Assembly (NCBI RefSeq): GCF_022758145.1 | Contig: NZ_JAJVDH010000003.1 | Span: 682,001 to 746,000, forward strand | Reading direction: 5' to 3' | DNA length: 64,000 nucleotides | DNA from: Pontibacter vulgaris | GTDB taxonomy: Bacteria; Bacteroidota; Bacteroidia; Cytophagales; Hymenobacteraceae | Shown: positions 14,284-57,478 of the stretch, in pieces | How the letters are laid out: every line of letters begins with the position of its first letter | Numbering within the stretch: the stretch's first letter is position 1 | Translations under genes and position numbers: made by a program | Notes under the pieces: generated by a model | What the model was told of the DNA's origin: nothing | Databases searched by the model: none | What the model saw: only the letters and a program-made list of their open reading frames with translations

Positions 14284-14291
14284 TATATTTG
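14284..14291 (+). promoter_or_regulatory. -7 box of waaA that decides its start codon
   Basis: TATATTTG matches TAnnTTTG. A TTG frame open from 14289 would begin inside this box, so translation must start further on, most likely at TTG 14337. The -33 position holds only a weak TGTG (14260-14263, about 20 bases upstream). Confidence 0.55.
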
Positions 14292-14336
14292 CAGCGCAGA
14301 AGGCTGTTTCTCCGGCCAAGTATAAAGAGTATAAAT

Positions 14337-15587
14337 TTGAAGTTACTATACGATATTGGCTTAAAAGCCTACCAGGGTGCTATTGCATTGGCTGCTCCTT
14401 TTAACAAAAAAGCGAAGCTTATGCAAACAGGACGCGAACAGCAGTTTGAGCGTATGCAGCAGGCTTTTGCAGGCAATCAGGCACCGGTGGTTTGGTTTCA
14501 TTGCGCATCGCTGGGTGAGTTTGAGCAGGGCCGGCCGGTAATGGAAGCTTTTCGCGAGACTTTCCCAAAGTATAAAATTATACTTACCTTCTTCTCCCCT
14601 TCCGGCTACGAGGTGCGCAAAAACTACGCAGGTGCAGACCTTATCTTTTACCTGCCACTCGACAGCGCCAGCAATGCCCGTACTTTCCTGAAAATAGTGC
14701 AGCCAAAACTGGCCGTGTTCGTGAAGTATGAGTTCTGGCATTACTATCTGCAGGAGCTGCACCAGCACGGGATTCCAGTGCTCTCCATATCGGCTATTTT
14801 CCGTGAAGGACAGGTTTTCTTTAAACCTTATGGTGGTTTTTACCGGAACATCCTGCAGCACTTCACTCACATTTATACTCAGAATAAAACATCGCTGGAG
14901 CTGCTTAAAAGTATAGGTATAACCCGTGCAAGTATAGCCGGCGACACCCGCTTCGACAGGGTGTTACAGACAGCTGCAAGTATAAAACCTATACCTTTGG
15001 TAGAAGCATTTACGGCAGGCCAGGAAGTATTTATGGTTGGCAGCAGCTGGCCTGCAGATATGAAGGTGTTGTTGCCGCTCATCCAGAAGTATAAACCAGA
15101 TATAAAATTCATTATCGCGCCACACGAGATACACGAAAGCGGTATTAATACCATGCTCCAGCAGATAGGCGAAGGCGCTATCCGTTTCTCTGAAGCCAAA
15201 GCAGCTGATGTAGCAAAGTATAGAGTGCTGATAATTGATAACATTGGCATGCTCTCGGCGCTGTACAGTTATGGCACTTATGCTTACATTGGCGGTGCTT
15301 TTGGCAAAGGTTTGCATAACACGCTGGAGGCAGCTGTGTTTGGTTTGCCATTATTCTTCGGACCAAAGTATGGCAAGTTTCAGGAGGCAATGGAGCTAGT
15401 GGAGTTGGGTTGTGCATTTCCGGTACAAACATCGGAAGAGCTTTTAGAGAAGTTTGAGCAGGTACACGAGCACAAAACAGAACACCAACGTATAACCGAC
15501 ACCGAAAAACAATACGTAAAACAGCAGGCAGGCGCTACTGCGCAAATTATGTCTGATATTACACAGTTGCTTAAACAAAACGCATGA
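14337..15587 (+). CDS. waaA: 3-deoxy-D-manno-octulosonic acid (Kdo) transferase WaaA
   Basis: The enzyme transfers Kdo from CMP-Kdo to lipid A precursor at the inner membrane. The protein is about 416 residues from TTG 14337 (MKLLYDIGLKAYQGAIALAA), which gives the short N-terminal membrane anchor expected of the family; earlier in-frame codons overlap the -7 box. Characteristic segments are WFHCASLGEFEQG (acceptor-site glutamate), LILTFFSPSGYE-like and the C-terminal nucleotide-binding region YIGGAFGKGLHNTLEA. The stop overlaps the rsgA start by 4 bases (ATGA), so the two are co-translated. The coding sequence is unusually rich in AAGTATA copies. Confidence 0.95.
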   Translation: MKLLYDIGLKAYQGAIALAAPFNKKAKLMQTGREQQFERMQQAFAGNQAPVVWFHCASLGEFEQGRPVMEAFRETFPKYKIILTFFSPSGYEVRKNYAGADLIFYLPLDSASNARTFLKIVQPKLAVFVKYEFWHYYLQELHQHGIPVLSISAIFREGQVFFKPYGGFYRNILQHFTHIYTQNKTSLELLKSIGITRASIAGDTRFDRVLQTAASIKPIPLVEAFTAGQEVFMVGSSWPADMKVLLPLIQKYKPDIKFIIAPHEIHESGINTMLQQIGEGAIRFSEAKAADVAKYRVLIIDNIGMLSALYSYGTYAYIGGAFGKGLHNTLEAAVFGLPLFFGPKYGKFQEAMELVELGCAFPVQTSEELLEKFEQVHEHKTEHQRITDTEKQYVKQQAGATAQIMSDITQLLKQNA

Positions 15588-31850: not shown

Positions 31851-31953
31851 TATACTTGGTTTTGTGCTTGCTTATACTTTAAACTACCTTTGTTGCGGTT
31901 ATAACCAGGGCTAAAAGCCTATACTTTATACTTGCTTCTTACATGTTATACTT
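31851..31953. repeat. Cluster of five TATACTT copies
   Basis: TATACTT occurs at 31851-31857, 31873-31879, 31920-31926, 31927-31933 and 31947-31953, all in the same orientation, spanning the promoter, leader and first codons (ATG TTA TAC TTG) of the EamA transporter gene. Five copies of a given 7-mer in 103 bases is far above chance. Confidence 0.85.
31861..31892 (+). promoter_or_regulatory. Consensus promoter of the EamA-yigZ transcript
   Basis: TTTG (31861-31864) and TACCTTTG (31885-31892) separated by 20 bases match the Bacteroidota consensus exactly. The EamA start codon lies 51 bases further on. Confidence 0.8.
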
Positions 31954-47391: not shown

Positions 47392-48876
47392 TTAAAGACC
47401 AGGGTTTGTTGTGGTCTCTGAAGTAGGAATTGGCAATACATAACGAGAATCTGTAGCGTCTATTGAAGCCCCAGCACCTCTCGAGTTAATTGGCAAACCT
47501 TTTCTGAACAAATCGTTTGTTCTAAAGCCTTCTCCTAATAACTCTATTCTTCTCTCGGTTAAAATTGCGTTAACAAGATCCTGCTTTGTAACACCTGTGT
47601 ATAGCCAGGTAGCATCTGAACGGTTATGAACGGCTTGCAGTAAAGCAATAGCTCGAACCTGATCACCAACTTCAGCCTCTGCTTCTGCAATGTTCAACAG
47701 AACTTCTGCATATCTGATAAGCGGAACCCAGTCCGTATATGGAGAAACAGCAGAATATTTAAGTGAAATTACCGGCTTAGAAGACAAGCCTGTGTAAACA
47801 GCTGTTAAGTCTGTTTTACGTTTGTCATCAGCCTCGAACTGAGGATTATTGTAAATACCTTGGATACCTGTAGTATTAGTATTGAAGTAATACTCAATAT
47901 TACCAGCATTGTAGTAATAACCAAGCTGATTCTGTGTACCAGGAGCATCTGTTTCAGTAAACGGTGCAGCAAAGATTATTTCCTGATTTACATCTGTTGC
48001 AAACACAGAAGCAGGATCAGGCAATAACTGGTATTTAACGCCTTCAGCTATACTGGTATTAGGTGCCGTTGAAGATACCAACTTGTTGCCTTCAGTAATT
48101 ACATCAGCATAACGACCCATTACAAGATAAACTCTTGTTTTAAGTGCTATAACTGTGTTCTTCTGTGCGCGGGTAACATTAAGTGCATTGTTTGCAGTAC
48201 CTGTACCATAGCGAGCAGGTAAATCAACTTCAGCCTCATTCAAATCCTTAAGAATCTGAGCATAGACTTCTGCTACAGTACTTCTTTTCAGGCTATTATT
48301 TTCTGTATTAGACTCTGCATTTAATCTTAGCGGCAGGCCTGGAGAAGCACCATTATCAAGTACATATGGTTTAGCAAACATCTGTACAAGTGATAAGTAC
48401 GACATTGCTCTGATAAACTTAGCTTCTGCTCTATATTGAGCTTCTAAAGCATCATCTACTTTATCTGAATTCTCTTCAAGACCTTTCAGGAATGTGTTTA
48501 CCCTGTTAATAGTCAGGTAAGCTCTTGACCAAAGATCAGTAGTATAATTCTCATCTGCACCTGCAGTCTGGTTCCAGATGCTGTAGCCCGTTACGTTGTT
48601 TGCAGTACGGTTAATAAACTCCTCTGCTCTTATATCATTATAAGCCTGATAACGACCACCTAAAAAGCGGCCATGCTTCATAGATGCATACAAACCATTA
48701 ACCTGAGCCAGTACCAAATCTGGTGTATCAAAGTTCTTACCCTCTAACAAAGTCAGTTCAGGCTGTGCATCAAGAAACTCTTTTTCACAAGAGGTAAGCA
48801 TTGGAGCGAAAGGTATGGAGAGTAAAGCAAGCCTTACTACATACTTCTTCTTTGAATGTATATCAAATATTTTCAT
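47392..48876 (-). CDS. SusD/RagB-family nutrient-binding lipoprotein (first pair)
   Basis: A 494-residue outer-membrane lipoprotein that caps a SusC-type transporter and binds its substrate. The leader ends LTSCEKEFLDAQPE, with the lipobox cysteine at about residue 30. The SusD-like helical region with TPR-type units follows, with a typical EAKFIRAMSYLSLVQMF segment, and the C-terminus ends in the standard PIPTSETTTNPGL. It lies 17 bases downstream of its SusC partner. I found no AAGTATA or TATACTT in this gene or its partner, unlike the rest of the window. The substrate is not deducible. Confidence 0.94.
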   Translation of the reverse strand: MKIFDIHSKKKYVVRLALLSIPFAPMLTSCEKEFLDAQPELTLLEGKNFDTPDLVLAQVNGLYASMKHGRFLGGRYQAYNDIRAEEFINRTANNVTGYSIWNQTAGADENYTTDLWSRAYLTINRVNTFLKGLEENSDKVDDALEAQYRAEAKFIRAMSYLSLVQMFAKPYVLDNGASPGLPLRLNAESNTENNSLKRSTVAEVYAQILKDLNEAEVDLPARYGTGTANNALNVTRAQKNTVIALKTRVYLVMGRYADVITEGNKLVSSTAPNTSIAEGVKYQLLPDPASVFATDVNQEIIFAAPFTETDAPGTQNQLGYYYNAGNIEYYFNTNTTGIQGIYNNPQFEADDKRKTDLTAVYTGLSSKPVISLKYSAVSPYTDWVPLIRYAEVLLNIAEAEAEVGDQVRAIALLQAVHNRSDATWLYTGVTKQDLVNAILTERRIELLGEGFRTNDLFRKGLPINSRGAGASIDATDSRYVLPIPTSETTTNPGL

Positions 48877-48893
48877 TTCTAAAGTAATTTTAA

Positions 48894-51800
48894 TTAAAAG
48901 CCTAAGTTAACACCGAAGGTAAATGCTTTACCTTGAGGAACTGTGTTACGCTCTACACCAGGCGCTATGTTTGAGCTACCATTTGAAGAAATTTCCGGGT
49001 CAACACCTTTGTAGTTTGTAAGCAGGAATGCATTATCAACCTGGCCGTAAACTCTCAGAGAGCTGATACCTGTTTTTCCGAAGAAGCGCTGTGGCAATTT
49101 GTAACCTAAAACAGCATTCTGCAGACGTACAAAGTCGCCTTTCTGAACGTTGGCATCAATTGGGAAAGCAGAACCGTTAGATACGTTATCGCCATAAACC
49201 GGGCGAGGAATATCAGTGTTTCTGTTTGCTTCAGTCCAGTGGTTAAGAACATCTGTATGGTTGTTCCAGATACGCTGATCTCTTAAGCCAGCTTGTGTAC
49301 CGTTGTAGATGTAGTTACCGCCAGAGTAAGAAAGCAGGAAGCTTAAATCGATGTTGCCATAAGAGAAGTTATTAGTGAAACCACCATACCATTTTGGAAG
49401 CGTGTTACCACCTATAGCAGCATCAGCACCAGAAATTGGATTAGCTTTTGTTCCATCTAAATAAGTCCATGCATTAGCACCACCACCGTGCAGATATTGC
49501 ACTTTCTCGCCTGCTTTGTTGATAAAAATTCTGCGGCCATTTTCAGGGTTCACGCCAGCTGTTCTAACTACAAAAAGGCTACCAACAGGCTGTCCTACAG
49601 TAGTAATGTTACTTGTTTCCAAACCACTGGTAACACCAAATATAGGAGCATCACCAACCAGTTCTGTAACTTCGTTTTTGTTCAGCGTAACGTTAAAGTT
49701 AGTAGACCATCTGAATTTACCATTGTCAATTGGGGTAGCATTCAGCGCGAACTCGTAACCTTTATTATACATTGAACCTACGTTTTGCAGGATTGAGTTA
49801 CCAGGGATACCTTTAGAAGGCGCCTGCGGAACACCAAGAATCAAACCATCAACATCATTGTTGTAGTAGTTAGCTTCTAAATTGATTTTGCCGTTCAGTA
49901 AACCTAAGTCGATACCAATGTTAGTTTGCTTACTTGTTTCCCAAGAAAGGTCGTTGTTACCAGCCTGAGCATAAACTAAGCTAGGAACTGAAGCATAAAC
50001 GCCATCAGAGTATTGTGTATAGGCACCGTAATTATCGCCTAAGTTACCATTACCTACACGGCCCCAGCTTGCTTTTAATCTTAAGTTAGATATCGCACTG
50101 CTGAAAGAGGCATTCTTAAAGAAATCTTCTTCAGAAATTGCCCAACCAACTGAAGCACCTCCAAAGTTACCCCAACGTTTAGCAGAAGCTAAAGCAGAGT
50201 TACCATCTCTTCTGAAGTTACCGCTTACAAAGTATTTACCGCCATAGTTATAGCTTAAGCTTGTAATATAGGCTTCATAAACTCGCTTACCGATAGAGCC
50301 ACCTGCAGTTTGGATACCGTAAGTAGCCTGGAAGTCGTTAAATGTAGGGATTGACAAGCCCTGACGTGATGCCCACCAGTAGTTAGAGTTAGTTTCCTGC
50401 ACATCTGAACCTACTAATAAAGATACATTATGCTTATCAGCGAAAGTTTTCTGATACTGAAGTGTATTTACCCAGTTCCAGTTTTCTCTTCTGCCATTTG
50501 AGTTTGTTGCTACACCCTTTTGGTTGAAACCGTCACCATTGATTGGATTATAGAACAATTTGTTCTCGGCATTGCTCAGGTCAAAAGAGTATGTAGTCTT
50601 AAAAGTAAGACCTTTTAAGATATTGAAATCAGCACCTAGGTTAGATAATAATCTGTTTGTTTCAGAGGTACTGTTATCATGATCTAAAAGAACAACCGGG
50701 TTATAATATGTCTGAGGGAAAAGGTTAGCCCCTGGTGCTAAAGCATTACCACTCAAGTTATAGCCACCTGTTGCGTTGTAAGGTGAAATATTTGGTGCAA
50801 GTACAAGACCAAGGCGGCCAAGACCTGCTACACCGTAAGCCTGACCTGGAAGTGAGCCACTGTTAGGAGATGAGTTTAAACCGTTTGTGTAAGTGATGTT
50901 ACCTCTTAGGCTAAACCAGTCAGTTACCTGGTGTGTTAGGTTTAAACGTGCATTTTTACGCGTAAAGTCATTCTTTTTAATGAATCCTTGCTGGTCAGAC
51001 AAACCGGTAGAGAAAAAGTAAGTAGTTTTTTCTGTACCACCAGATACTGATAAAGCATGGTTGTGAGACAGCGCTCTACGATAAACCAGGTCTTGCCAGT
51101 CAGTATCTACCATAGATCCGTCTGGGTTAGTGCTTGGGAAGAAACTCTTGTTTTCTGCATTGCGGTTAGCAGCAGGAACAAGTGCAGGGTTAACAGCAAT
51201 GGCATTAGCTACAGCTAAGTTTTTGAAATCCATGTACTGTTGTGCGTTAAGCATTTCCGGTAATCTGGTAGCTTTGCTAGTACCAACCCAACCATCATAA
51301 GTTACTTTCGCTCTACCTTGCTTACCTTTTTTAGTAGTGATGATTAATACACCAGAAGCTGCTCTTGAACCATAAATAGAGGTAGAAGCAGCATCTTTCA
51401 GTATGTCGATAGACTCTATATCAGATGGATTAATATCTGAAAGCGGGTTATTCGCAGAGTTATTATCAGAAACATCGCCTGTAGAAATCGGAATACCATC
51501 TACTACAATCAGAGGAGAAGAGCTCAATGAAATTGAGTTAATACCACGGATACGAATTACAGGCGCATTGTTTAGCACTCCATTTGGCTGCACAATATTT
51601 ACACCCGAAGCTTTACCAGTTAGCGCCTGAGCAAAGCTTTGCACCGGACGATCTTTAATTGCTTCAGCGTTTACAGTTGCTGCTGCTCCTGTAAATTCTT
51701 CACGGCTTTTAGTAGCATAACCTGTAACAACTACCTCACTCAGCTGCTTGTTATCAACTGCCAGTGTAACGTTAACATTGCTTGCATTACCGATAGCTCG

Positions 51801-52049
51801 TTCTACTGTTTGGTAACCAATAAAACGGAATACAAGTGTATTGCCATTTTCCGGAACATTCAGTGTATAAGAACCATCAACCCCGGTAGCAGTACCTACA
51901 GTGGTACCTTTTACTAATACGGCCACTCCGGGAAGCCCCTGACCTGTTGCCTGGTCGGATACCTTACCAGATACGGTCTTGCTCTGGGCCATTGCCTGCT
52001 GCAGCAAGGCGAACACCAGAACAAAACTCATTAGTAGTAGTTTTTTCAT
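48894..52049 (-). CDS. SusC/RagA-family TonB-dependent transporter (first pair)
   Basis: A 1051-residue outer-membrane transporter. The start at ATG 52049 (MKKLLLMSFVLVFALLQQ) gives a standard signal peptide ending AMAQ; the frame is open 25 codons further upstream but that part is hydrophilic and unlikely to be translated. After the signal come a carboxypeptidase-regulatory-like domain (about 25-110), the plug with SEVVVTGYATKSREEFTGA and VVDGIPISTGD, and the beta-barrel to the terminal aromatic GKAFTFGVNLGF. It shares its signal peptide and first 110 residues closely with the second SusC. The coding DNA is more AT-rich than average. Confidence 0.94.
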   Translation of the reverse strand: MKKLLLMSFVLVFALLQQAMAQSKTVSGKVSDQATGQGLPGVAVLVKGTTVGTATGVDGSYTLNVPENGNTLVFRFIGYQTVERAIGNASNVNVTLAVDNKQLSEVVVTGYATKSREEFTGAAATVNAEAIKDRPVQSFAQALTGKASGVNIVQPNGVLNNAPVIRIRGINSISLSSSPLIVVDGIPISTGDVSDNNSANNPLSDINPSDIESIDILKDAASTSIYGSRAASGVLIITTKKGKQGRAKVTYDGWVGTSKATRLPEMLNAQQYMDFKNLAVANAIAVNPALVPAANRNAENKSFFPSTNPDGSMVDTDWQDLVYRRALSHNHALSVSGGTEKTTYFFSTGLSDQQGFIKKNDFTRKNARLNLTHQVTDWFSLRGNITYTNGLNSSPNSGSLPGQAYGVAGLGRLGLVLAPNISPYNATGGYNLSGNALAPGANLFPQTYYNPVVLLDHDNSTSETNRLLSNLGADFNILKGLTFKTTYSFDLSNAENKLFYNPINGDGFNQKGVATNSNGRRENWNWVNTLQYQKTFADKHNVSLLVGSDVQETNSNYWWASRQGLSIPTFNDFQATYGIQTAGGSIGKRVYEAYITSLSYNYGGKYFVSGNFRRDGNSALASAKRWGNFGGASVGWAISEEDFFKNASFSSAISNLRLKASWGRVGNGNLGDNYGAYTQYSDGVYASVPSLVYAQAGNNDLSWETSKQTNIGIDLGLLNGKINLEANYYNNDVDGLILGVPQAPSKGIPGNSILQNVGSMYNKGYEFALNATPIDNGKFRWSTNFNVTLNKNEVTELVGDAPIFGVTSGLETSNITTVGQPVGSLFVVRTAGVNPENGRRIFINKAGEKVQYLHGGGANAWTYLDGTKANPISGADAAIGGNTLPKWYGGFTNNFSYGNIDLSFLLSYSGGNYIYNGTQAGLRDQRIWNNHTDVLNHWTEANRNTDIPRPVYGDNVSNGSAFPIDANVQKGDFVRLQNAVLGYKLPQRFFGKTGISSLRVYGQVDNAFLLTNYKGVDPEISSNGSSNIAPGVERNTVPQGKAFTFGVNLGF

Positions 52050-52804
52050 TGTGTTGTAATTAAAGTGAATAAATTGTTTAAGGTGTAAGTTGAGATAATT
52101 TAGAGCAAAAAATTCCCTGTCCACCTCGAAGGAGGCGGGTTAAACTATAAGCAAAGGCCACCGTTTATGGCCTATCAAAAACAGATACAGGGGAGAATAT
52201 AAAATTTACTTCCTTGTTGTTAAAAACACTTAGTTGTATCCATACAAGGTTAAGGATTCAGGCTTATTTATGTCCAATTATGAGCCAGCACAATCTGCTA
52301 AACTCTAAAGCTCTTTTTCCTAAGCCAATAATATCAATATATTCAAATAAACGCAAGAGATTCACGAAATTTAATCAACAATCAAAACACTCTACATACC
52401 AATCACTTACAATACAAAACATCCTTAACAGGCCTAACCGAAGACTTTATTCAATAGCTTACAACCGTTTAACACAGGATACACTTAACACAACCACTCG
52501 CTTTCAACAACAATGTTTAAACACAATTAAACCAAAGCAAGCAGCCTTGCTCAAGCAAATATCAAATTCGGAAGAATTCCAAAAAGAGAAGTTCCCGAAT
52601 GAAAACTATAGCTTAAAGAGCTTACCATAACGAACCCGATGAAAATCAGCGTTATAACATAAACCACTTTTGTTTGCTTACCCTTGCATGGCCCGGATGA
52701 TAGTTGCAGCCTCGTGCTGTAAGCTTTGCCAATTTATATTTAGCTAAAGTGTCATTTAAAGAAACTACTTACAGCACAACATTGCTCAGATTCACTTTAA
52801 ACAG
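52050..52804. other. Non-coding region upstream of the first SusC gene
   Basis: About 750 bases with no gene I can support. Close to the SusC start are two small hairpins, CCTC-N4-GAGG (around 52123-52134) and AGGCCA/TGGCCT (52155-52160 and 52168-52173, 7-base loop), which could be operators or leader structures. The middle (52214-52630) is AT-rich; a 138-codon open frame there has the composition of non-coding DNA and is rejected. No consensus TAnnTTTG box was found. Confidence 0.55.
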
Positions 52805-52861: not shown

Positions 52862-54298
52862 TTAATCTTCTGTGCCATCATCCCACCAAACACCATTTGT
52901 AATCTGCGTACTGGGTACGTTGGCAGCATTGGCATCTAGCTCTGATTGTGGGTACGGGAACCTGAGCGGCGCAGGGCCTATCGGGTGCGTGAGCGCAGGA
53001 AAACCTGTACGCCTGTAATCATTGAAAGCTTCGATTGGCTGAAAAAGCCAGAATGAGATCCATTTCTGGCGGATTATACTTTCCAGGTTAAGCCCGCCGC
53101 TTGCTATAGAAGCTACATAGGTTGTAATGGCAGCGTTAGAAAGCTCCGGAGCCTGGCGTTGCATGGCAGCCGTTACAGCTTCTGTAAAGGCAGTAACAGC
53201 TCCGGCTGCATTTCCAAGTCTTAGGTTTGCCTCTGCTTCAATAAACTTTAACTCATCGTAAGTCATTAACGGCATCGGCGAAGTAGCATTCAGTACAGCC
53301 TCTGTTGGGTCTGAAAATAACTGGCTGGCCTGGTCGTTTGTTTGCGTGCCATTAGGGGCTCCGGTAATTTCGCCAGTCTCGGGCGCAGGCGCTACCATTA
53401 CTGCAAGCCGCGGATCATTGAGGTTATCCAAGGTATTCACAAAAGTCTGGCTTACGGCATGGTGGGCCCGGTCATTAGACTCCTGATACCACGGATGCTC
53501 CCCTGCTGACTGGGTCGTAAACTTATTGAACACGAAATTATCCGCTGAACTTTGGAAACCGTTTGCAGCAGCTGCCAGCGCCTGTGTTGCCGAGCCGGTA
53601 GCATCAATGTTACTTAACCTGTTATAATAACGTGCTTTTAATGACCAGGCGGCTTTTGTCCAGCTATCTGCATCACCACCATAAATCAGATCTGCCTGGC
53701 CAGGGCTGGGGCCACCTTTTGCCAAGTCGGCGATGGCCTCGTCTAACAGGGTTTGTATATTAGTATAAATCTCCTGCTGGTTATCAAACTTCGGCGTACG
53801 CAGCTCAGCGCCTCGCCCTATTTCTGCATAAGGTACACGCCCCCAGGCATCGGTTGCGATGGCAATAGTATAAGCTTTCAGAATTTTGGCAATACCTACT
53901 TCTATAAACTTACCTTCTTCATCGCCTCCTGCAGAGCCTTTTGTGATAATTGCATTCAGATCGGGCATGGTGGTGGCGTAAATGGTACCCCAGGTATTGT
54001 TCACCAACGTATTATTGGTGTTACCTGAACGAAGATCTGCTGCTTGTAGCTGGGCATGTACGCCTGCTGTATGTTGCACAAACACCGAGGAGTACCAGGC
54101 AAGGTCAGTGCCTGAAATGGCAAAAGACACATCGGTAATTACCTGGGGCAATAAGAGGCTAATGGGTACATCCAGCGGGTTGTTTGGGTTGGTGTCAATT
54201 TCATCCAGTTTGTCCTCACTGCAGGAGCCGGCAAAGAAAAGCAGCAACGTTACGGCTACAATCCGGCTTATATATTTATTCGTTTTCATGATTTTCAA
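52862..54298 (-). CDS. SusD/RagB-family nutrient-binding lipoprotein (second pair)
   Basis: A 478-residue SusD-like lipoprotein of the SusD-like_2 subgroup. The leader ends FFAGSCSEDKLDEIDTNPN with the lipobox cysteine at about residue 26; the DTNPNNP motif after it is typical of the subgroup. Start at ATG 54298, or possibly ATG 54289 three codons on (MKTNKYISR). It contains at least one TATACTT (about 53072). It lies 9 bases downstream of the SusC partner. The sequence differs substantially from the first SusD, so the two pairs likely take different substrates. Confidence 0.92.
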   Translation of the reverse strand: MKIMKTNKYISRIVAVTLLLFFAGSCSEDKLDEIDTNPNNPLDVPISLLLPQVITDVSFAISGTDLAWYSSVFVQHTAGVHAQLQAADLRSGNTNNTLVNNTWGTIYATTMPDLNAIITKGSAGGDEEGKFIEVGIAKILKAYTIAIATDAWGRVPYAEIGRGAELRTPKFDNQQEIYTNIQTLLDEAIADLAKGGPSPGQADLIYGGDADSWTKAAWSLKARYYNRLSNIDATGSATQALAAAANGFQSSADNFVFNKFTTQSAGEHPWYQESNDRAHHAVSQTFVNTLDNLNDPRLAVMVAPAPETGEITGAPNGTQTNDQASQLFSDPTEAVLNATSPMPLMTYDELKFIEAEANLRLGNAAGAVTAFTEAVTAAMQRQAPELSNAAITTYVASIASGGLNLESIIRQKWISFWLFQPIEAFNDYRRTGFPALTHPIGPAPLRFPYPQSELDANAANVPSTQITNGVWWDDGTED

Positions 54299-54307
54299 CT
54301 TATAAGG

Positions 54308-57300
54308 TTAAAACGTTACTCTGATACCGGCGCCATAGCTCCTGGTTTGCGGCAGCGATACATACTCAAGCCCCTGGAAGTTACCAGCTCCACCCACACT
54401 TGTTTCAGGGTCGAAGTTCGGGTAATCGGTTATGAGGAACAGGTTGCGGCCGGTCAGGTAGAGTGAAGCTCCCTGGAAAGGAGTTTTCTTAACCAGGTTT
54501 TCAGGTATAGTATAACCGAGGGTTACCTCGCGCAGGCGCACAAACGTAGTGGAGTATACATTCGACTCATCTATAACATCCATGGCGGTTTGCCAGAAAG
54601 TCTGCCCCTGTTCAACAGCTATATCGTTAGGACCTTCCACTACCAGGTTGCCATCTTCATCAATAAATCCTTTAGAGCCTTCGAATACTTTCGGTGTTTC
54701 ACGATCCTCGGTTATTTCTGCCATACCATATAGTTTGAGCAATCGGGTATTACCTGCATAAGCATTTCCTCCTTTTCGCCAGTCTAGCTGAGCTGTCAGG
54801 TTAAAGCCTAAGAAGTTGAAACTATTCTGAAAACTCAGCTCAAAATCAGGCTGCACGTTAGCAATAGCTTTTGCCGGGCCTGCAAGTGGCATACCATAGT
54901 ATGGGTTTGGCTCTCCTTCTATTGTTTCACGGCTGTCTACTACAATATTTCCACCGTCATCGCGCACAAACGAGGCACCGAAAATAACAGGGTAAGCGTC
55001 GCCTGCCTGCGCCCGCACGTTTGGTATCACAAAACCGCCCAGGAAGATATTTTCTACTCCGGGTGCCAGCTCTTTAACCTCGTTATCATAGGTAGAGAAG
55101 TTTGTAGTAAGCTCCCACTGGAAATTTGTGGACCTGACAGGAGTTATACCTACCACCAGTTCATGGCCCTTGGTTTGCAGTTTACCGGCATTGCGTAACT
55201 CGGCTGTAAAACCACTGGTTGGGGCTAATGGTACCGGGAAGATCTGATCTTCCGTGGTTTGGACGTAATAAGTATAATCTACTGTGAACCGGTTATCCAG
55301 AAATCTCAGGTCACCGCCAAACTCTGTTGTTTTGGTATTCTGAGGGCGTAACTGATCGGAACGTAACAGATCTGACAGTGAGTAACCGTTTAAGTCGTTA
55401 AAAGGAAACTGGATATTATCTGCAAGAAAGCCGGAACCCGAGCCCCCTACCAGGTAAAAGTTCCTAGTCTGGAATGCATCATCCGGTGCCTGGCCTACCT
55501 CTGCAAACGAAGCTCTTATTTTGGCAAAGCTCAACCAGTTGTTCTCGATCTCGAAAGCATCTGTTACTACAAAACCCAACCCAATAGATGGGTAGAAGAA
55601 GGATCGGTTATCGCGTGGCAGGTTAGAAACATAATCCTGGCGGGCACTGGCATTCAGGAAGAGATAATCTTTATACCCCGCTTCCAGGTTGGCATAAAAA
55701 CCAGCTACACGCCTTCTACTTATAAAATCTGTGGCCCGCTGCGTATTTGTACTACCAATGTTACGGAAGCCTCCTATGGCTATACCTGTACCAAAGTTAC
55801 TGATCAGCCTGCTACGTATATCATACACCTCATTACCCAATAGTAGGTTCAGGTTGATATCTTCTGTTACATCCCGGTTAAAATTCAGCGAAATGTTAGA
55901 GTTAATCTGGTTCTGATTATTGGTGTAGTCGTTTATCTGGCCGGCTCCGCCTGTATTACCTGAGCCTAACTCGTATACTTCCTTACCATCTGTTGTAAAA
56001 TAATCTACACCAAGCCTATAGTTCAGCGATACCCAGTCGAGGGGTTTATAGGTTAAATTAGCATTACCTATAACCCGGCGTGTTTGCTCCGTAAATGAGT
56101 TATTGGCCAGCGACCATCTTGGGTTATCAATGGCACTTCGGTAATTATACTGGCGGTAAGGTTCTCCAGGAAAAGAGAAAGGAGATCCCCACAGATCAAA
56201 TGTGCGGGGTGCGGCATATAATGTAAACAGTGGGTTAGATAAGTTACTACCTCCCGGTATCTTGTCCACATTTACATCCGAATAATTTACAGATGCTCCT
56301 AAGGTCACTTTCTCATTAAGGTTAAAATCGCCGGCAACTTTACCAGTATAGCGTTTCATACCTGTAGTTGGCACTATACCTTGCTGATCGGTAAAACCAA
56401 AACCGAAAGCATAGTTACCTAACTGCCCGCTGTTACCTACCGTAATGTTGTTGTTCCAGGTATGGCCGGTTTCGAAGAAGGGGTCAACGTTGTCGAAAAC
56501 CCTGTTACCGGGCCGTGTATTGCCCAAGCGGTCGGTAATATCGCCGAGTTCGCTTATGCGCGGACCCCATGAAAGTGAAGTAAAATTGGAATAATTTCCG
56601 GCGCTACCTTGCGCATAAGTGCTCTGCAAATCTGGCAAGCGGGAGACTTTATCAAACGTATAATCGGAGTTAAAAGTAACGGTAGCTCCTTTTTTAGCAG
56701 TCAGGCCCTTTCCTTTTTTAGTGGTGATGATCACAACCCCGTTTGAGGCACGCAAACCATAAAGCGCAGCAGCAGCACCACCTTTAAGCACCGAAATTGA
56801 TTCGATGTCGTTCGGGTTAATATCGAGTGCTCTGGAAGAAGCGTCTGCCCCACTTACACCACCTGTACCAGGGCCATTGCCGGATGCATCCTGGATTAAG
56901 GCGTTACTTTCAATAGGCATACCATCTACCACATATAGCGGCTGGTTGTTACCTATAAGCGCCCTGCTGCCACGTACCGTAATAGTAGAAGAAGAGCCAG
57001 GCAAACCGCTCGACTGCCGCACAATCACACCGGCTACTTTACCTTGTATGGCATTGGTAACGTTTGGCTGCCCTGCTTTGGAAACCGTTTCGCCTCCGAG
57101 CTGTTGCACCGAGTAACTCAGCGCCTTTTCTTCCCGCTCAATACCAAATGCCGTTACCACCACCTCGCTTAGTTGCTTTGTATCAACACCCATGGCCACA
57201 TTTATAGTTGTAGCGTTGCCAATAGGGCGTGTAACTGTAGTATAGCCAATAAACCTGAACTCCAGCGCAGTACCAGTTGCCGGAACGTTTATAGTATAGG

Positions 57301-57478
57301 ATCCATCGGCACCAGTGGTTGTGCCCACCGTTGTGCCTTTTACCAGAACAGCCACCCCCGGTAACGGCTGACCAGTAGCCTGGTCTGTAACCGTACCTGT
57401 AACCGTTCCGCCTTGCGCCATGGCTTGTTGCAATATGCCAAACACAAGGATGAAGCTTATTAGTAATAGTCTTTTCAT
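54308..57478 (-). CDS. SusC/RagA-family TonB-dependent transporter (second pair)
   Basis: A 1056-residue outer-membrane transporter. A signal peptide ending AMAQ, a carboxypeptidase-regulatory-like domain (about 25-105) with TDQATGQPLPGVAVLVKGTT, the plug with SEVVVTAFGIEREEKALS and YVVDGMPIESNAL, then a beta-barrel. The FGIEREEKALSYSVQ plug variant is a common SusC subgroup. Start at ATG 57478 is well supported. It contains three or more AAGTATA/TATACTT copies, unlike the first SusC. Nearest family members transport oligosaccharides or peptides; the substrate here is unknown. Confidence 0.94.
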   Translation of the reverse strand: MKRLLLISFILVFGILQQAMAQGGTVTGTVTDQATGQPLPGVAVLVKGTTVGTTTGADGSYTINVPATGTALEFRFIGYTTVTRPIGNATTINVAMGVDTKQLSEVVVTAFGIEREEKALSYSVQQLGGETVSKAGQPNVTNAIQGKVAGVIVRQSSGLPGSSSTITVRGSRALIGNNQPLYVVDGMPIESNALIQDASGNGPGTGGVSGADASSRALDINPNDIESISVLKGGAAAALYGLRASNGVVIITTKKGKGLTAKKGATVTFNSDYTFDKVSRLPDLQSTYAQGSAGNYSNFTSLSWGPRISELGDITDRLGNTRPGNRVFDNVDPFFETGHTWNNNITVGNSGQLGNYAFGFGFTDQQGIVPTTGMKRYTGKVAGDFNLNEKVTLGASVNYSDVNVDKIPGGSNLSNPLFTLYAAPRTFDLWGSPFSFPGEPYRQYNYRSAIDNPRWSLANNSFTEQTRRVIGNANLTYKPLDWVSLNYRLGVDYFTTDGKEVYELGSGNTGGAGQINDYTNNQNQINSNISLNFNRDVTEDINLNLLLGNEVYDIRSRLISNFGTGIAIGGFRNIGSTNTQRATDFISRRRVAGFYANLEAGYKDYLFLNASARQDYVSNLPRDNRSFFYPSIGLGFVVTDAFEIENNWLSFAKIRASFAEVGQAPDDAFQTRNFYLVGGSGSGFLADNIQFPFNDLNGYSLSDLLRSDQLRPQNTKTTEFGGDLRFLDNRFTVDYTYYVQTTEDQIFPVPLAPTSGFTAELRNAGKLQTKGHELVVGITPVRSTNFQWELTTNFSTYDNEVKELAPGVENIFLGGFVIPNVRAQAGDAYPVIFGASFVRDDGGNIVVDSRETIEGEPNPYYGMPLAGPAKAIANVQPDFELSFQNSFNFLGFNLTAQLDWRKGGNAYAGNTRLLKLYGMAEITEDRETPKVFEGSKGFIDEDGNLVVEGPNDIAVEQGQTFWQTAMDVIDESNVYSTTFVRLREVTLGYTIPENLVKKTPFQGASLYLTGRNLFLITDYPNFDPETSVGGAGNFQGLEYVSLPQTRSYGAGIRVTF

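Follow-up and report, generated by a model that had tools for sequence, protein, structure and literature searches.

HIP1 is a palindromic octamer, GCGATCGC, which is very dense both within and between genes and is confined to some cyanobacterial lineages. To our knowledge, the uptake words that have been tested for function come from two families of Proteobacteria and depend on the type IV pilus (in part according to sections of PMC3630211 and PMC1626085). The DUS of the Neisseriaceae are 10-12 bases long and share the core CTG; their reader is the pilin ComP (PMC3868556). The USS of the Pasteurellaceae are 9-base words with AT-rich flanks, and the sites of H. influenzae are reported to arise by substitution (PMC1626085, in part); the receptor proposed for the USS is a minor pilin (PMC12616744). 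Among the Bacteroidota, a preference for own DNA was seen when Riemerella columbina was offered competing DNA (PMC7965970), and no pilus homologues are reported for Riemerella (PMC8459023). Transformation in this genus needs ComEC, DprA and an HHH protein, and R. anatipestifer also requires a DUF5689 surface protein; as to words, the authors list only A/T-rich top k-mers and call for more work (PMC7965970, PMC8459023).

The stretch of DNA analyzed here, called the window in what follows, comprises 64 kb of the genome of Pontibacter vulgaris. The heptamer AAGTATA is the top over-represented 7-mer of the window, where it occurs 181 times (74 on the forward and 107 on the reverse strand, one copy per 354 bases) against 12.5 (sd 3.5) expected from dinucleotide shuffles, and none of 100 shuffles reached this number. 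Longer forms presented a still higher excess (AAGTATAA, 107 vs 6.2; AAGTATAAA, 64 vs 2.2), which places the word nearer to 8-10 bases, with the form (C/A)AAGTATAAA. Past about 10 bases the flanks are not shared between copies, which makes AAGTATA a word rather than a repeated element. The initial annotation had reported eight copies around a waaA-like gene and a cluster of five further on. All of them are present, seven of the eight on the forward strand (the copy at 14579 is on the reverse strand) and the five of the cluster on the reverse strand. The features of the window are as follows:

1-64000, 74 copies on the forward and 107 on the reverse strand: 181 dispersed copies of AAGTATA, within and between genes, with the extended form (C/A)AAGTATAAA
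14318-14324, forward strand: AAGTATA copy in the waaA-like gene (14289-15587)
14568-14574, forward strand: AAGTATA copy, read as AGGTATA in at least one species of the AGG dialect
14579-14585, reverse strand: AAGTATA copy
14909-14915, forward strand: AAGTATA copy, read as AGGTATA in at least one species of the AGG dialect
14930-14936, forward strand: AAGTATA copy
14978-14984, forward strand: AAGTATA copy
15087-15093, forward strand: AAGTATA copy
15216-15222, forward strand: AAGTATA copy, read as AGGTATA in at least one species of the AGG dialect
31851-31953, reverse strand: cluster of five AAGTATA copies
47392-52124, reverse strand: stretch without AAGTATA, with SusD-like and SusC/TonB-receptor-like genes

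Over the whole genome, AAGTATAAA was found 3463 times against 72 for the reversed word. In 464 kb of this genome, AAGTATA occurred 1221 times, as compared with 145 expected under an order-2 model, and was 12.0-fold enriched over the word-masked background. The excess is real and strong. Among the 105 7-mers of the same composition, whose median ratio was 1.09, AAGTATA ranked first, and ranks 2-6 were taken by shifted or partly overlapping forms of the word itself; thus, the equal enrichment of many such 7-mers, named at the outset as the outcome that would speak against a special word, was not observed. The order-5 Markov comparison proposed at the same time gave only a small excess (AAGTATA, 1221 vs 1056; AAGTATAA, 716 vs 498), since such a model holds the 6-mers AAGTAT and AGTATA, which carry the signal, and so absorbs it. 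The reversed word is free of this flaw and is the fairer control. The palindrome AAGTATACTT was found at 183 places in the genome, its reversed control at none; it was rejected as the unit, and because it accounts for a minority of the words, the asymmetric word is taken as the unit.

A similar density on both strands and in coding and non-coding DNA had also been claimed for most other regions. The enrichment stood, with 835 copies in coding (7.9-fold) and 360 in non-coding DNA (8.6-fold) within the 464 kb, whereas the density turned out to be uneven, with word-free stretches. The spacing of the copies is slightly clustered and their density over-dispersed (variance/mean 2.1). Along genes there is a mild rise toward the 3' end, from 70 copies in the first tenth to 100 in the last. 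Two SusD/SusC-like pairs lie in the window, the one at 47392-52124 with no copy of AAGTATA and the one at 52862-57478 with three; these pairs are perhaps recent arrivals. No AAGTATA was found over about 9.5 kb of genes for ribosomal proteins and EF-G of the same genome. This stretch, with the S7, EF-G, L3, L4, L2 and S3 genes (L099:10441-20000; 510-520 kb of contig C2), has 0 copies, and 4-kb bins elsewhere average 10.5. The adjoining rpoB has 3 copies in 3.9 kb, and rpoC (8 copies over 4.3 kb) comes close to the gene average.

It could be argued that composition, codon usage or mutational bias makes the word and that nothing reads it. The order-5 model, which predicts 1056 of the 1221 copies, would agree with this, as would the clustering and the uneven distribution over the reading frames, which hold from 70 to 251 copies each. 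Nevertheless, all six frames and the non-coding DNA are raised, the word tops its composition class followed by its own shifted forms, and sister clades of similar make-up differ by word. The single-base neighbours are also informative. In the 464 kb, the commonest neighbour of AAGTATA is expected about 181 times and none falls below 0.73 of its expectation; hence, the 1076 excess copies cannot have come from the conversion of one neighbour. Pooled, 18 of the 21 neighbours are at expectation (1830 vs 1836), and the three raised ones are AACTATA, AAGTATG and AGGTATA. Something favours the whole word, and mutation alone does not account for it, so that we consider bias a highly improbable explanation. 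If mutation is roughly reversible, an 8-12 fold excess would correspond to a scaled drive of about 2-2.5.

The nearest named loci belong to Pontibacter, and the SusC/D-like genes are likewise indicative of Bacteroidota. The relatives comprised 80 loci in addition to the window's genome. Within Pontibacter, three largely exclusive dialects were recognized, one or two bases apart from each other: AAGTATAAA (AAG), AACTATAG (AAC) and AGGTATAGC (AGG). The first of these exceeded 1000 copies in 18 of 36 genomes of the genus, the other genomes having 93 to 572; many of the latter bear another word instead. The scans for AACTATAG and AGGTATAGC took in 24 of the 37 Pontibacter genomes, eight of which carry the AGG dialect (1365-2768 copies) and one the AAC dialect (8208 copies); G002 and G007 were weak in all three words. 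It should be noted that AAG genomes, too, have several-fold more copies of AGGTATAGC than of the reversed control (167 vs 25 in the window's genome), so a dialect was called only from large counts. The window's genome has, in addition, 907 copies of AACTATAG vs 179, and its AACTATA is raised 4.6-fold. Pooling of the loci of named species, whose dialects rest on 14-21 kb each, assigned 12 loci and the window to (C/A)AAGTATAAA, three loci to AACTATAG and eleven to CAGGTATAGC; six loci from five species had no word.

As a whole-genome check, the dialect words were summed as ARSTATAR and compared with the reversed control in 34 genomes. The ratio was 4.9-15.8 in 25 genomes, and 1.1 in P. beigongshangensis, 2.0 in P. 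ummariensis, 2.0 in P. silvestris, 0.95 in Botryobacter ruber and 1.5 in P. qinzhouensis; one Adhaeribacter and three Rufibacter gave 0.8-1.2. The word is therefore lost or nearly lost in five of 30 genomes. The genome sets leave out Pontibacter L022 and L045 (AGG dialect) and most Hymenobacter. In P. beigongshangensis (L017, L103-L107), CTCCGGA was found 58 times vs 13.4 in 121 kb, often as the palindrome CTCCGGAG; it may have arisen recently to take the place of the family word, which this species has lost.

With Hymenobacter as the root, a protein tree grouped all AGG species in one clade and all AAC species in another (100* each). The number of changes on this tree was four for the AAG label, two for the word-less label and four for all labels together; L020 and L026, with too few aligned columns, are absent from the tree and contributed no orthologous sites. 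The simplest reading, on a tree of a quick kind whose deepest Pontibacter fork is unsettled, is that AAG is ancestral and that two re-spellings and two losses followed. An uncultured species of the AAC clade, L004, bears two words (AAC, 213 vs 21; AAG, 193 vs 34). It is a transitional genome and, among DUS genomes, resembles that of Simonsiella muelleri (PMC3630211, in part).

Other words were flagged by eye in eight of 40 Hymenobacter and Solirubrum loci (six named species plus L046 and L078), the remaining loci having weaker ones. CTACCCC reached 95 vs 11.3 in Hymenobacter latericoloratus and 93 vs 12.7 in H. sediminis, and ACCTAGG 116 vs 8.0 in Solirubrum puertoriconensis and 121 vs 8.8 in H. 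cavernae (81 kb each); CTAGGCC reached 79 vs 13.9 in H. wooponensis and 67 vs 12.0 in H. fodinae (61 kb each). These words may represent the same phenomenon as those of Pontibacter. The form AAAAGCCCCC of H. roseosalivarius and H. qilianensis was excluded on visual inspection, since it probably stems from terminator hairpins. Rufibacter immobilis (L072, L151-L153) has a longer word resembling CCCCTAAACGCA, with CCCCTAAAC found 19 times vs 0.4 in 81 kb; this is perhaps an intergenic repeat rather than a dialect. As for other families of the order, 19 stretches of 8-20 kb each were scored, a further one of 1.5 kb being dropped, and none of the 19 matched most AAG loci in strength except the repeat arrays of G038 and G039. 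The 20-kb stretch from the latter (L157, C1:1-20000) is filled by one repeat, AGTACTCC, with 217 copies. Borderline words were seen in two other stretches of 20 kb: CAGGAAC in L159 (G041; 17 vs 1.9) and CACCAAC in L160 (G042; 19 vs 2.5).

A short, asymmetric, lineage-specific word across the core genome is also what would be expected of a Chi-type recombination hot spot, in which the recognition by RecBCD or AddAB had been changed by single bases. We regard this as improbable. On the G-rich strand, taken as leading from the GC skew of the 464 kb, there were 666 copies vs 550 (54.8%), and 101 same-composition 7-mers gave 53.0% (Fisher p 0.26), which argues against a strand polarity specific to the word. 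Moreover, some of the Hymenobacter words are palindromic (ACCTAGGT).

The orthologous positions of the window's sites were then considered in the relatives. At 70-76% DNA identity, the AAGTATA sites were intact in 23-46% of the aligned cases in twelve AAG species, as against 8-23% for words of the same composition. In the other species they were at or below the control, except for L004 (29% vs 13%) and, barely, L023 (12% vs 10%). The 262 aligned cells of AGG species read AGGTATA in 42 cases and AAGTATA in 14; the 121 of word-less species, in 2 and 4; and the 344 of AAG species, in 14 and 107. The 96 cells of AAC species gave AACTATA 8 times, AAGTATA 18 times and AGGTATA 4 times. Counted as distinct sites, which are few and whose cells from related species are not independent, AGGTATA was read at 9 of 31 in AGG, 6 of 41 in AAG, 4 of 34 in AAC and 2 of 39 in word-less species. 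Seven of the nine AGGTATA sites of the AGG species are AAGTATA in another AAG species, and three of the nine lie in the waaA-region stretch (14568, 14909 and 15216). Gaps were found at 23 of 823 aligned word sites (2.8%; the background, 1.2%, is about half of that). Since 800 of the 823 are gap-free, substitution accounts for the spelling and re-spelling of most sites.

To look for the reader, ComEC, DprA, the HHH protein, the type IV pilus motor and DUF5689 were searched for in 42 genomes. ComEC, DprA and a ComEA-like HHH protein (304-414 aa among the matches listed) were matched in all 42. The five word-less or word-poor genomes keep the frames of all three, so the word and these genes are not lost together. 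L023 (G079, Pontibacter sp. HSC-14F20) has internal stops in comEC (C76:160505-161305) and dprA (C13:17460-18072). It is the only such genome, still has a 6.9-fold excess of dialect words, and has either lost competence recently or been poorly assembled. The search with PF00437 found no type IV pilus motor in the 42 genomes; two passed the 24.9-bit cut-off (25.3 and 25.0) over only about 60 of 370 positions, with short P-loop matches. Accordingly, a type IV pilin is not expected as the reader. DUF5689 was matched in 18 of the 42 genomes; the surface protein was rejected as the common reader, being absent from the window's genome. The genes around comEC and the HHH gene were compared across 20 genomes, namely 14 Pontibacter with the word, five genomes without it or poor in it, and one Rufibacter; no gene cluster was shared by the 14 and missing from every one of the five. 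A sodium symporter gene adjoins the HHH gene.

Another possibility is that the word is the target of a lineage-specific methyltransferase or restriction-modification system whose modification is useful or protective. Type IIG and type III enzymes commonly have asymmetric targets of 7-8 bases, which differ from one another by single bases, and in the 30 genomes searched with PF01555 and PF02384 some N6_Mtase (PF02384) match was present in every one. These matches, however, are mixed in size and kind, and the word-bearing G065 has only a weak frame of 289 aa. N6_N4_Mtase (PF01555) had no match in seven of 25 word-bearing genomes, including that of P. chinhatensis (G068), which has one of the highest word densities. 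Restriction, besides, usually thins its own sites, and we judge this explanation very improbable. The co-occurring methyltransferase or receptor suggested as a check was thus not found with the families searched (PF01555, PF02384, PF00437 and DUF5689).

The proposal that this is a dispersed word comparable to HIP1 or to uptake sequences, with function left as an inference, is borne out as far as a word at the DNA level is concerned by the whole-genome counts, the relatives and the parity between coding and non-coding DNA. Like HIP1, it is dense, dispersed within and between genes and limited to certain lineages. A structural word of that type would be kept by weak selection for an abundant protein that organizes or repairs the chromosome, with a preference drifting between lineages, and would be intracellular and unrelated to uptake. 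The density of the word and its similar enrichment in and between genes are nearer to HIP1 than to DUS; classic DUS and USS are longer, sparser and more enriched than the Pontibacter word. Species with and without the word are alike in having the competence core genes, and a putative new reader is required under either view. On the other side, AAGTATAAA, AGGTATAGC and most copies of AACTATAG are non-palindromic, unlike HIP1, and change by single bases between sister clades. Such dialects and the re-spelling in place are documented for uptake words (PMC3630211, in part). The absence from highly conserved genes fits a drive set against constraint, though weak selection would also produce it. Taken together, a HIP1-like role seems to us unlikely, yet a serious contender.

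The comparison with uptake sequences fits better than that with HIP1, since the words are mainly non-palindromic and their one-base dialects follow phylogeny. In shape and evolution, the system appears to resemble the dialects of uptake sequences. It shares with the DUS of the Neisseriaceae the thousands of copies, the variants of a few bases that follow phylogeny, a genome with two dialects and word-less relatives (PMC3630211, in part), and differs in its 7-10 bases, its S-TA-TA core, its higher density and the type IV pilus motor, which was not found. With the USS it has in common two lineage-specific spellings in one family, sites that arise by substitution and conserved competence genes (sections of PMC1626085); the hosts here, however, are Bacteroidota in which no pilus motor was found. 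Riemerella belongs to the same phylum, and the ComEC, DprA and HHH proteins needed for its transformation are matched here (PMC7965970 and PMC8459023, in part).

We therefore favour, with a probability of roughly 0.48, the reading that AAGTATA is a genome-wide word maintained by sequence-biased natural transformation, and as such a candidate DNA uptake sequence. The tag AAGTATA(AA) would be bound by a putative receptor during natural transformation, so that uptake and recombination would favour DNA of the cell's own dialect. Incoming fragments with the word would turn near-matches of the recipient genome into it, and purifying selection would exclude it from strongly constrained genes. A one-base shift in the preference of the reader could then lead to a slow re-spelling of the genome, in which relics such as the AACTATA of the window's genome would persist for a while. 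The receptor would be other than a type IV pilin, and hence a new kind of reader. The excess is, we infer, driven by biased uptake, as suggested by its occurrence on both strands, the dialects that follow phylogeny, the re-spelling in place, the absence of the word from conserved genes and the presence of the competence core genes. Against it stand the reader and the type IV pilus motor, neither of which was found, the word loss that does not track the competence genes, the gaps at word sites at about twice the background, and the AAG species that also read AGGTATA. Weak selection acting through a chromosomal reader would produce a very similar pattern. With the usual pilus missing and the loss of the word not following the competence genes, the word is only a candidate member of the DNA uptake sequences.

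Among the open-licence papers listed on uptake sequences in Hymenobacter, Bacteroidetes or Bacteroidota, and on repeats or palindromes in Pontibacter, no report of these words was found. Pontibacter and its relatives in the Hymenobacteraceae might, more tentatively still, represent a separate invention of uptake sequences outside the Proteobacteria, with fast-evolving words and a pilus-independent receptor that would re-spell genomes base by base. Three dialects in one genus, a genome with two words and word-less relatives amount to a natural experiment on the origin, replacement and extinction of such words. The gene of the reader should vary with the dialect, which would offer a handle on the receptor of Bacteroidota without pili. 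Even if the reading as an uptake sequence is wrong, something in these genomes has re-spelled thousands of sites.
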